Assembly: GCA_013821455.1 (NCBI GenBank)
Contig: JACDGS010000019.1
Location: 1-64,000 of the forward strand
Direction: 5' to 3'
DNA length: 64,000 nt
Source of the DNA: Chthoniobacterales bacterium
GTDB lineage: Bacteria; Verrucomicrobiota; Verrucomicrobiia; Chthoniobacterales; UBA10450
Under the pieces are notes generated by a model that saw only the letters and a program-made list of their open reading frames with translations, was not told the DNA's origin and ran no database searches. Positions within the stretch are counted from its first letter, which is position 1, and every line of letters begins with the position of its first letter. Both the position numbers and the translations under genes were made by a program. Of the stretch, positions 50,631 to 54,471 are shown one piece after another.

Positions 50631-50703
50631 GCGAGGCCACTATAAACTTGCGCTCCGAGGCGGCAAGAAATCGGCGCGGTGCAAGACGCGAAAAGAGCAC
50701 TCG

Positions 50704-51333
50704 TTAGGCTTTTGGGACGGCGTGTTCCTTGAGCCAAACCGAGACAAACCAAGTGTAATCACGGAAGGTGAGATTCTCTTTCGTTTGACCCAGTTCTCGT
50801 GCCATCGCAGGCAATTCCTGCGCGAAACGCTGATAGCGTTGATGGATTTTGGCACCCCCCAGGATGATTACTCGGGCCGGCGCCGCACTGCGCAGGAAAT
50901 CGCGCACCGCGCCGATCGCGCGAGCGACGTTGCGCCCGTGCACGCTGATGTCCTGTCCCGCAATATCGGAACAAAAGCGCTGATAACGGTGGGGCGAGCG
51001 ATCGAGCACCAGACAAAGCTTTCGTTTTTGCCTGCGCGTGCCATAGGCCTTCGCGCCGAGGAACATGCCTAGCTCCAACGGCATGTTGAAGCGAGGCAGC
51101 CGCGATTTGGGGTCGAGTTCCGTCCGCGAGATGTCATGCAGGCCGATGCCACACTCGGAAATGACGCGCAGGATCTTGTCGATCCTGACCTGGCTGGTAT
51201 CGCTAATTTCCAACGCACTGCGCGCGATGTAGCCGCAGTCGTGCACAGTGAAGACGACGGCGTGAAAGAGCTTACGGTAAGCGCGATCGAACGGGCAGTT
51301 AATGAAGACGCTCAGCTCGTATTCGCCGGGCAT
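50704..51333 (-). CDS. Conserved protein of unknown function, possibly TIR-like
   Basis: A 209-residue protein. Its first half has a conserved core: LSVFINCPFD near residue 10, IARSALEISD near 37, then VRIDKILRVISECGIGLHDISRTE and PRFNMPLELGMFLGAK. The second half includes VLDRSPHRYQRFCSDIAGQDI and a final FRDYTWFVSVWL. I know this pattern from proteins annotated only as hypothetical. The order of a strand, a glutamate, a helix and a GLHDIS strand recalls TIR or nucleoside-deoxyribosyltransferase-like folds, which is inference. The TAA stop lies in a dispersed-motif copy. Its start follows a 59-residue gene by 13 bases. It may belong to a defence-type module. Confidence 0.6.
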   Translation of the reverse strand: MPGEYELSVFINCPFDRAYRKLFHAVVFTVHDCGYIARSALEISDTSQVRIDKILRVISECGIGLHDISRTELDPKSRLPRFNMPLELGMFLGAKAYGTRRQKRKLCLVLDRSPHRYQRFCSDIAGQDISVHGRNVARAIGAVRDFLRSAAPARVIILGGAKIHQRYQRFAQELPAMARELGQTKENLTFRDYTWFVSVWLKEHAVPKA

Positions 51334-51346
51334 CGGAGACGACCGC

Positions 51347-51526
51347 CTAACGAGTGGCGTGCGCCCCGTTGTGGGAGGTTGATTTTGCGGAAGCGGACCG
51401 CCGCTGCTGCGCCAACTCGCCCGGAGAATACTGCGTCACAGTGCGAACAGCGCGCTCGATTTCTTTCCGGGTAAAATTGCCGGTGAATTTGGGGTATTGA
51501 ATGACCCGAAGTGTTTTCGCTGGCAT
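51347..51526 (-). CDS. Small protein preceding the TIR-like gene
   Basis: A 59-residue frame from the ATG at 51524-51526. It begins MPAKTLRVIQYPKFTGNFTR, then KEIERAVRTVTQYSPGELAQQ and a basic tail ending GAHATR. The TAG stop is part of a dispersed-motif copy (51345-51352). I recall similar short proteins with RVIQYP and FTRxEI immediately upstream of homologues of the next gene, so it is probably real and a functional partner. Function unknown. Confidence 0.55.
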   Translation of the reverse strand: MPAKTLRVIQYPKFTGNFTRKEIERAVRTVTQYSPGELAQQRRSASAKSTSHNGAHATR

Positions 51527-51586
51527 ACCGTTAGTTAATCAGCAGTCTCGCAGCCTGTCACTTTTTTTTCCGGAGAACGATTTTTC

Positions 51587-53008
51587 TCAATGGATTCCAG
51601 CCAACTCCTGCAAGGCAAGTTTCTTTGCTTTCGGTTGATCGAAACGGTCGCTTGCCGCGGTGGTGAAATCGGTTCTGGCCTCATCTATTTTGCCGGAGGC
51701 GAGGTAGGCGCGGCCGCGGTTGTAGAGAATGTAAGCGTCGTTAGGCGCGAGCGGAAGAGCCTGGTCGTATTCTTTGATCGCCTCGTCCGGTTTGCCTAAC
51801 AATAAGAGCGCGTCGCCGCGGCGATTGTGCGCTTTGGCCGCGAGCGGCGCAGCGAGCGGGTCGTCGTTAGGCAGGCAAGCCGGCAGGAGGCGCAGCACGC
51901 CCGCGCAGGTGTCCGACGCGGCCAGCACTCGCGTCGAAGGACCGGCCGCATCTTTGAGATCGTCCTTCACGCGCTCGAGCAAAGCTTCGAGCGGCAGGAC
52001 GATTTGGTCGCTCGAAGTGTGCGAACGCGCCAGAATTTCCAGTCCTTGCAAACATTCTGCCGCCTGGCCGGCTTTCGCGAGTTTCGTGAGGGCCGCTGGG
52101 TCGGGCCGGATTGAAGACGGAGCCGACGGTTTGTCGGCGGGAATCTGCACAGGGGATTCGCGGGATGGAGAAGCATCGGCGATTGGCTTTCCGGCGAGAT
52201 AAATGTCGTCGCCGATGAGACGCGAATATTCCGCGGGAACTTGTCCACCTTCCGATCGGGCAATGACGGCGGCGCGCGTGCGTTTGAAGACCTGCTCGAT
52301 CGTTAGGCCGGGCTGGCGCAGGTAGCGCAGAAGTTCTTCGGTGTAGAGACCGTTCACGCCGTCGCCGTCGAAGGCGGTGCGCCCGGCGTCGGTGGAAAAC
52401 GCGATGAGCGAACCGGTGGGCGGCGTCATTTCCACGAGGCCTGCATGACCAGTGAGACTGCGGCTCTGCCCGCTGCGAGCAAGCGGCGTATTTCGGCAAG
52501 CATCGAGAATAACGATGTTGCAGCGCGCGCCGCCGGCGCTCATGTCGGCGACGGCTTGCTCGGCGTTAAAGAGGCGCGTCTCCGCCAGCATGCGCAACGT
52601 AGTCTGCTCGACGCCTTCCGCATTAAAACCGGACTTGAGCGGGACGAGATAATTCGCGCCATCCACCGCAATGCCGTGGCCCGCATAATAAAAAACCGCG
52701 ATCTCGGCGGCGGGGAGCGTCTTGCGAAAATCGTCCACCAAACGCAGGAGCTGCTCGCGCGTGACGTTGTGTTTTTCGGTCACGGAAAAGCCGAGCCCGC
52801 GCAGGGCCGAGGCGACTGCTTTGGCGTCGTTGTCTGTGTTGCGAAGCCTGCCCGCGGAGGATTCGTAACGCGCATTACCGATGACGAGCGCGGTGCGGGA
52901 TTTCACAAGCGGAGACGTCGCGTCGCGCGCCGCGAGGGAGACGGCCAACGGCAACGCCAGACTCAGCCTAACGAGATTAAAAAATCGGGAGCGAGGGAAA
53001 ATTTGCAT
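51587..53008 (-). CDS. Exported metacaspase (C14) with C-terminal TPR repeats
   Basis: A 473-residue protein with a likely signal peptide (about residues 10-27, VRLSLALPLAVSLAA). The caspase domain begins RTALVIGNARY. The catalytic histidine is in FYYAGHGIAV near residue 111 and the catalytic cysteine in VILDACRNTP near residue 170. After a Pro-Ser linker the C-terminus has tetratricopeptide-like repeats: AKAHNRRGDALLLLGKPDEA and DAYILYNRGRAYLASGKIDEA. Bacterial metacaspases cleave after Arg or Lys. An exported one with TPRs suggests a regulated periplasmic protease. No partner effector lies beside it. Confidence 0.88.
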   Translation of the reverse strand: MQIFPRSRFFNLVRLSLALPLAVSLAARDATSPLVKSRTALVIGNARYESSAGRLRNTDNDAKAVASALRGLGFSVTEKHNVTREQLLRLVDDFRKTLPAAEIAVFYYAGHGIAVDGANYLVPLKSGFNAEGVEQTTLRMLAETRLFNAEQAVADMSAGGARCNIVILDACRNTPLARSGQSRSLTGHAGLVEMTPPTGSLIAFSTDAGRTAFDGDGVNGLYTEELLRYLRQPGLTIEQVFKRTRAAVIARSEGGQVPAEYSRLIGDDIYLAGKPIADASPSRESPVQIPADKPSAPSSIRPDPAALTKLAKAGQAAECLQGLEILARSHTSSDQIVLPLEALLERVKDDLKDAAGPSTRVLAASDTCAGVLRLLPACLPNDDPLAAPLAAKAHNRRGDALLLLGKPDEAIKEYDQALPLAPNDAYILYNRGRAYLASGKIDEARTDFTTAASDRFDQPKAKKLALQELAGIH

Positions 53009-53077
53009 ACAAGGGAACGCGCGAGAATCAAACTTTCAACTCGCCGCTTGGAATGGCACTATGAGAATCAAATTTCC

Positions 53078-53944
53078 GTGCGGCAAGCCTCCTCCTTAAG
53101 CAATCAGCGTGCTCGCGGTTGCCCCCGATTGATTTCGTTAGGCGCCATTCTTGTGCTTGGCGCTTGCGCCGCGCCGGAGCACTCGCCGCCATCGGCGCCA
53201 CTCGTCCCAGGCGACCCAGCAGCGCCGTCGCAGGTGACTCCGGCAGACGCACTCGCTCTGGCGGAACTGTACTCGCGCCACCCATGGCAACCCTTCGCGC
53301 GCAATATTCTCCACGGCGCCGATGCGGCCGGGGTGAAAGTTGACACACCGGATGCCGGTTACCATCCGGAGCACGGCAGGAATGGCTGGTGGATTCCAGG
53401 TGAAGTGAACGAAGGCATTCCCTATAAGTGGGGCGGCTTCGACGACCCCGCGACTTTCGACCGCGCGATCGCAGAGGGGCGCGCCGCGGGTGACGTTTCG
53501 AGTCCCGCGAAACGCGCGGCCGACAATCGCGCGGTCAGTGTGCAGGCGGCCGGAGTCGATTGCTCGGGATTTGTCTCGCGCTGCCTGAAGCTCCCGGAGG
53601 TGCACGACTCGTCGCAATTACCCGCGCTTTGCGATCCGCTGGCGCGGACGGACGATTTGCGTCCCGGCGATCTGCTCAACATTCCGCATCGGCACGTCAT
53701 ACTCTTCGCCGGCTGGGCACGGCCAGATCATTCATGGATTTATTACTACGAGACCGGCGGCATTCCCGAGTGGAAGCCCGCGCTAAAACAGTCGCCGCTG
53801 CAGACTATCCTCTCGTTAGGTTTTCAGCCGCTGCGCTATCGCGGAATGGCGCGCGAGGAGGTGCCCTCCGGGAAACAAGTGCTCACGCGAGCCGTGCGGC
53901 AGCGCGCGGTCAATGTCGCCCAACCAGTGATCGGCGAGCCCTAA
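53078..53944 (+). CDS. NlpC/P60-type lipoprotein (putative cell-wall hydrolase)
   Basis: A lipoprotein of about 288 residues. The lipobox LGAC follows a hydrophobic stretch (LISLGAILVLGAC). The start is uncertain: GTG at 53078 gives a basic n-region and is preferred, TTG at 53129 gives almost none. The C-terminal domain has the NlpC/P60 cysteine in GVDCSGFVSRCL and a histidine in HRHVILFAGW, as in papain-like peptidoglycan endopeptidases. A Pro-rich spacer follows the lipid anchor. It ends EP-stop with TAA in CCCTAACGA. It is divergent from the metacaspase gene with about 70 bases between. Confidence 0.78.
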   Translation: MRQASSLSNQRARGCPRLISLGAILVLGACAAPEHSPPSAPLVPGDPAAPSQVTPADALALAELYSRHPWQPFARNILHGADAAGVKVDTPDAGYHPEHGRNGWWIPGEVNEGIPYKWGGFDDPATFDRAIAEGRAAGDVSSPAKRAADNRAVSVQAAGVDCSGFVSRCLKLPEVHDSSQLPALCDPLARTDDLRPGDLLNIPHRHVILFAGWARPDHSWIYYYETGGIPEWKPALKQSPLQTILSLGFQPLRYRGMAREEVPSGKQVLTRAVRQRAVNVAQPVIGEP

Positions 53945-53981
53945 CGATCTCGCGCGAGCGGCGCGAAGTCTATTCGTTAGG
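53940..53981. terminator. Inverted pair of dispersed-motif copies; possible hairpin
   Basis: CCTAACGA at 53940-53947, overlapping the NlpC-type stop codon, and TCGTTAGG at 53974-53981 are perfect 8-bp inverted repeats 26 bases apart, with further self-complementary sequence between (TCGCGCGA). Transcribed, this could fold behind the gene. No U-run follows, so intrinsic termination is uncertain. Confidence 0.4.
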
Positions 53982-54099
53982 CGCGGTCCGAATTTCAGCC
54001 TTCGCAACCTATCGCACCAACATCTTCCCCAACGCGAAAAGAAATTCGGCGCTTGCGCTGCACCCGCGTTCTCTGATTTTCTACGACGAAGCCGATTGA

Positions 54100-54471
<372 letters not shown>

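Follow-up and report, generated by a model that had tools for sequence, protein, structure and literature searches.

The stretch of DNA analyzed here (64,000 nt, hereafter the window) comes from a verrucomicrobial MAG and carries a well-supported two-gene module, in which a gene for a 59-residue basic protein precedes a gene for a 209-residue protein of predicted TIR/NDT fold. The pair resembles a phage-defence or self-poisoning switch of an undescribed kind. At about even confidence, we read it as a compact, mobile, immune-type module whose TIR-type effector, a putative NADase or nucleotide glycohydrolase, would be controlled by a docking partner in which the sensor part is exchangeable.

The gene pair in the window

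Both genes lie on the minus strand, the small gene first and the large gene after 13 bases; this short gap suggests a single transcript for both. The ORFs and the sequence confirmed the coordinates and the spacing given in the preliminary description, and the motifs quoted there (FINCPFD, ALEISD, GLHDIS and PRFNMPLELG) were all found. The features of the locus are as follows.

51347–51526, minus strand: small partner gene of 59 aa, beginning MPAKTLRVIQYPKFTGNFTRKEIERAV (ORF)
51334–51346, no strand: 13-base intergenic gap (sequence)
50704–51333, minus strand: TIR/NDT-fold protein of 209 aa with candidate catalytic E87 (ORF, AF2, Foldseek/VIA, profile match)
51070–51096, minus strand: PRFNMPLEL motif, residues 80–88, with the E87 codon at 51073–51075 (alignments of relatives and of CAP12-type TIRs)
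50631–54132, no strand: variable dnaE-glnB interval that carries the module (comparison with relatives)

These ORFs are more than chance occurrences, because relatives of the large protein number more than 500, the motif of the small gene is detected by an HMM built from other phyla, and the small genes are under purifying selection. The pair is flanked by a caspase-TPR gene upstream and dnaE downstream, and the window's genome has one copy of the large gene. An Rfam scan of the locus gave no match. The gene immediately upstream (51587–53008, minus strand) encodes a caspase domain (PF00656, E 3e-36) with TPRs; because nine related genomes match it in the TPR part only, it may belong to the same variable cargo.

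The small partner carries a conserved motif with variable tails

The partner in the window is basic (pI 11.3) and contains the motif RVIQYPKFTGNFTRKEIERAVRTV. At most loci the partner genes are short basic ORFs (median 70 aa, median pI 11.4) that end a few bases from the start of the TIR-like gene, with small gaps or overlaps. They seem unrelated at first glance; nevertheless, many of them contain a common motif of 25 residues, R-x-[IV]-x(2)-P-x-[KR]-x-G-x-[VF]-[ST]-[RK]-x(2)-I-x(2)-A-V, which recurs across phyla in small genes beside the TIR-like gene. An HMM of this motif, seeded with 14 loci of phyla other than the window's and with none from Poribacteria, scored 14.0 bits on the window partner against a 99.9% control quantile of 9.5, and gave scores of at least 10 bits for 35 of the 71 upstream regions held out from it versus 3 of 4608 control windows. 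A literature search for the motif strings returned no match. The partner in a same-genus relative is 47% identical to that of the window, and purifying selection acts on the small genes of related loci (dN/dS 0.09–0.15 in four pairs and 0.52 in one very close pair). The low-confidence AF2 model of the 59-aa partner, with an extended N-terminus and helices at residues 20–32 and 35–45, would fit a peptide that becomes folded on contact with its partner.

The motif HMM found nothing in the regions upstream of the TIR-like gene in 22 Poribacteria. A lack of partner in this group was ruled out, since the motif sits directly downstream of the TIR-like gene in all 22, as detected by the same HMM devoid of Poribacteria seeds. 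All the Poribacteria fall in a single clade (98/91), which makes one swap of the gene order probable, and the retention of the motif in 22 of 22 after the swap indicates that the pairing of motif and TIR-like gene outlives rearrangement.

What accompanies the motif in the partner ranges from nothing to DUF2188 (PF09954, E to 1e-25), a GIY-YIG-like domain, a 590-aa protein or a complete oligonucleotide cyclase. Fusions of the motif to proteins of up to ~590 aa occur at L026:10617-11870, L042:10617-12419 and L044:10639-12411; the ~590-aa copy at L044 had no Pfam or PADLOC match. At L036:10640-11911, directly after the TIR-like gene, the motif is fused to a CBASS-type oligonucleotide cyclase (PADLOC E 1e-127; Pfam DncV-like E 3e-10). 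This fusion was seen once; the TIR-like gene is its only effector-like neighbor, and no other CBASS gene adjoins it. The TIR-like proteins of L036 and L047 are 87% identical while the L047 partner consists of the motif and a 20-residue tail only, indicating that the tail was exchanged and the TIR-like protein retained. The partner is modular and can lie on either side of the TIR-like gene, a property absent from the preliminary description.

The motif or DUF2188 was found at threshold in 83 of 106 loci, with the HMM seeds and four duplicate genomes counted in. Of the other 23 loci, most have another short basic ORF beside the TIR-like gene. Motif-less partners of the DUF2188 type occupy the most distant branch of the tree (L019, L105-L110). 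Eight further Verrucomicrobiota loci comprised one motif-like partner, two DUF2188-like partners, four other short ORFs and one broken TIR-like gene. In the titles and abstracts of the literature on DUF2188, no link to defence was evident.

Some loci depart from the one-to-one arrangement. Two partner copies accompany one TIR-like gene at L045:10641-11174 and L028:1298-1666, in tandem, and at L032, one on each side. At L007:1294-2010 the partner and a TIR-like gene without its first strand have become one ORF through a deletion; this looks like a dead copy. At L179 the place of the partner is held by a 130-aa protein built of repeats, KATQPSKAYQEMVDQLR.

We tentatively propose that the motif is a plug-in docking peptide, by which one TIR-like effector family would be switched by interchangeable sensors bearing it. 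If so, the plug-in peptide would let immune inputs change while the effector stays unchanged. The main rival to the gated-effector reading, less probable in our view, is a type II toxin-antitoxin system, in which the small basic protein would act as an antitoxin that neutralizes a TIR-like toxin cleaving NAD+ or nucleotides, the benefit being stabilization or abortive infection. The module resembles such systems as a two-gene operon with the small gene immediately upstream, at gaps of a few bases or with overlaps; a small neighbor is nearly always present beside intact TIR-like genes, and copies lie on plasmids and prophage-like contigs. However, Pfam recognizes no DNA-binding antitoxin fold, tails such as a nucleotide cyclase, DUF2188 or a nuclease-like domain would be unusual in an antitoxin, and the gene order is reversed in Poribacteria. 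A swapped order is known in toxin-antitoxin pairs, though less common.

The large protein has a predicted TIR/NDT fold and an invariant glutamate

The AlphaFold model of the 209-aa protein, built with 66 relatives, reached a pLDDT of 93.1 and a pTM of 0.91. Strands at residues 8–12, 36–38, 63–67, 106–111 and 128–131 are predicted to alternate with helices, giving one TIR-like domain followed by two C-terminal helices, with no Pfam domain and no fused sensor or cyclic-nucleotide receptor domain. Foldseek ranked SPARTA TIR-APAZ first (E 1.6e-3), the match falling in its TIR domain; unlike SPARTA, the window system has no Argonaute or APAZ. VIA gave Z scores of 12.5 for DNPH1 (2.4 Å over 127 residues), 11.9 for the SPARTA TIR, 11.1 for AbTir and 10.6 for SARM1. 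The preliminary description had likened the core to TIR or deoxyribosyltransferase folds, and a TIR/NDT fold is well supported by the model together with Foldseek, VIA and the profile match to CAP12/Pycsar TIRs described below. Because VIA scores DNPH1 and the SPARTA TIR closely, the fold by itself cannot tell TIR from NDT.

The family is unnamed. As a single sequence, the 209-aa protein matched no model of Pfam, NCBIfam, PADLOC or PHROGs above cut-off, and the sole lead was PF10137 (CAP12/Pycsar TIR) at E 0.22 and 12.0 bits, below the gathering cut-off of 24.7. Of the 66 relatives, 31 matched this model weakly (E up to 1), with a best value of 8e-4. PDB sequence searches with the single protein and with a 66-row profile yielded no useful match, and a literature search of partial coverage found no description of the family or of the partner motif. 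The hhalign comparison was weak against a profile of four CAP12-type TIRs and reached a probability of 92.7 (P 4e-7) against a larger CAP12/Pycsar TIR profile, in which RFNMPLELG was paired with RDNVLFEYG and SDIAG with SDLAG. Comparisons with NDT and classical TIR profiles, each of only four or five sequences, were not significant. The sequence profiles thus lean to a CAP12-type TIR over an NDT.

The PRFNMPLEL motif is invariant or nearly so in the 66 aligned relatives, and E87 is invariant. This residue lies in PLELG in the first turns of helix alpha-C, which follows the third strand, and is aligned with the glutamate of RDNVLFEYG/RDNVxFELG in CAP12-type TIRs, an equivalence based on profile alignment and the order of secondary-structure elements. 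The counterpart of the CAP12-type glutamate is catalytic in Sf TIR-STING and TirC (PMC13142454). The glutamate of ALEISD (E42), earlier put forward as catalytic, is >90% conserved but lies in a loop after the second strand (beta-B). By alignment, E87 is therefore most likely the catalytic glutamate candidate rather than E42.

The same fold would also suit a DNPH1/NDT-like deoxynucleotide hydrolase or deoxyribosyltransferase that depletes or edits nucleotides in infection under the same partner logic, a reading that we consider improbable. DNPH1 belongs to the same fold class and is the best match by VIA Z, and NDT-family enzymes, too, use a glutamate, which sits in [YF]E[LM]G-like surroundings in the alignment. 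However, the protein matches neither PF05014 nor, by hhalign, the profile of NDT sequences, whereas the profile comparison favors the CAP12-type TIR.

The module is patchy and mobile

A profile-based scan of genome_contigs yielded at least 525 relatives of the TIR-like protein, the best 80 of which are 48–80% identical to it and span at least 13 phyla; the closest among the matches listed is from Spartobacteria palsa_1392 (80% identity). The claim that similar pairs occur in unrelated bacteria was correct. The module is patchy and mostly single-copy, occurring once in each of 9 of the 388 Verrucomicrobiota species sampled. Phyla are interleaved in the tree of the TIR-like protein, with 27 changes against a minimum possible of 12, which supports horizontal transfer, MAG binning errors being a possible contributor. 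Relatives occur on 17 plasmid records and 11 IMG/VR contigs, and none was found in phage records. Several of the IMG/VR matches lie among terminase, portal, head and tail genes, suggesting that some copies ride in prophages. Two Sphingomonas plasmids carry a 95% identical pair in different surroundings.

In the window, dnaE and glnB enclose the pair as cargo, and the interval between them is a variable cargo site. Nucleotide similarity to relatives stops at ~50677, about 27 bp before the module. The interval is ~127 bp in G003, and it holds genes that by eye resemble a heme peroxidase in G001 (L161:831-2678), a nuclease in G004 (L160:7477-8496) and an Ig-repeat protein in G006 (L162:953-2737). 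The same-genus relative G004 has its module copy elsewhere, adjoining an mlaD-like gene. Together with the plasmid and prophage-like copies and the mixing of phyla, the dnaE-glnB cargo bears out the earlier proposal of a mobile two-gene module. That the large protein is a housekeeping or salvage enzyme served by a small chaperone, outside conflict systems, is very improbable: ordinary metabolic genes often flank the module, as dnaE and glnB do in the window, but it is rare, patchy and missing in most relatives, has plasmid and prophage-like copies and lacks conserved operon neighbors.

The neighbors of homologues are mixed, often ordinary metabolic genes. On plasmids they include restriction, AbiEii, RES and RecB-like genes, and in genomes DUF4062, ThsB and type I methylase genes. 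The preliminary description had proposed looking for defence islands around homologues; a PADLOC scan of ~140 near against 141 far neighbor proteins (6.5–10 kb away) gave no clear excess of defence genes, these counts being crude in that many methylase models match one protein.

Relation to known systems and a proposed mechanism

The closest relation is to the CAP12/Pycsar TIRs (PF10137; TIR-STING, PycTIR), with which the window protein shares a profile match, the TIR topology, the candidate catalytic glutamate at the start of helix C and the motifs RxNxxxE[LY]G and SD[IL]xG. It differs in its score below the Pfam cut-off and in having no STING, SAVED, Pycsar sensor or membrane domain; instead, it pairs with a small motif protein. 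Swarozyc, a DUF4062 TIR-like family outside the classical TIR models, is an NADase triggered by phage portal (PMC13174449). It is likewise patchy and mobile, with a conserved glutamate, but consists of a single protein to which a portal-sensing domain is fused (PMC13174449), whereas the window system has two genes. The window protein has no DUF4062 match, and one of 66 relatives matched at E 0.09. Likeness to CBASS is confined to L036, where the TIR-like gene is coupled to the motif-cyclase fusion; no cyclase or accessory gene occurs at the window locus or among the other partners examined, and the window protein has no recognized cyclic-nucleotide receptor domain. For Thoeris (ThsA, ThsB), neither protein of the pair had a PADLOC match.

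From the fold, the mobility, the cyclase fusion and the analogy to Swarozyc, we infer a role in antiphage defence; by that analogy, the precedent of another TIR-like family that proved to be a phage-portal-triggered NADase (PMC13174449) would favor the gated-effector reading. In the mechanism that we propose, the 209-aa protein would cleave NAD+ or a related nucleotide via E87 and thereby halt cell growth. The small basic partner would bind it through the shared motif and either hold it off or set it off, and the region outside the motif (nothing, DUF2188, GIY-YIG-like, CBASS cyclase or the 590-aa protein) would supply the signal, probably phage infection. Several results weigh against this gated effector: the Foldseek E value is only ~1e-3, the NDT/DNPH1 match is as good as that to TIR, PF10137 stays below cut-off, the neighborhoods show no clear enrichment, 23 of 106 loci lack both the motif and DUF2188 at threshold, and the cyclase fusion is single.

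TIR proteins form a link between antiphage defence in bacteria and the immune systems of plants and animals, and the present family is a large unnamed one of TIR type with a constant partner motif and a changing remainder. The module would be a natural, testable case of a toxic effector coupled to many sensors, and the motif could serve as a short handle for finding further systems through its fusions to new domains.

Other TIR genes occur in some of these genomes. The window's genome encodes a separate CAP12/Pycsar-type TIR protein of 328 aa (G000:C10:3199-3549, L111). At L012, in genome G049 with its three family members, a classical TIR gene lies 44 bp upstream of a divergent one of the family.
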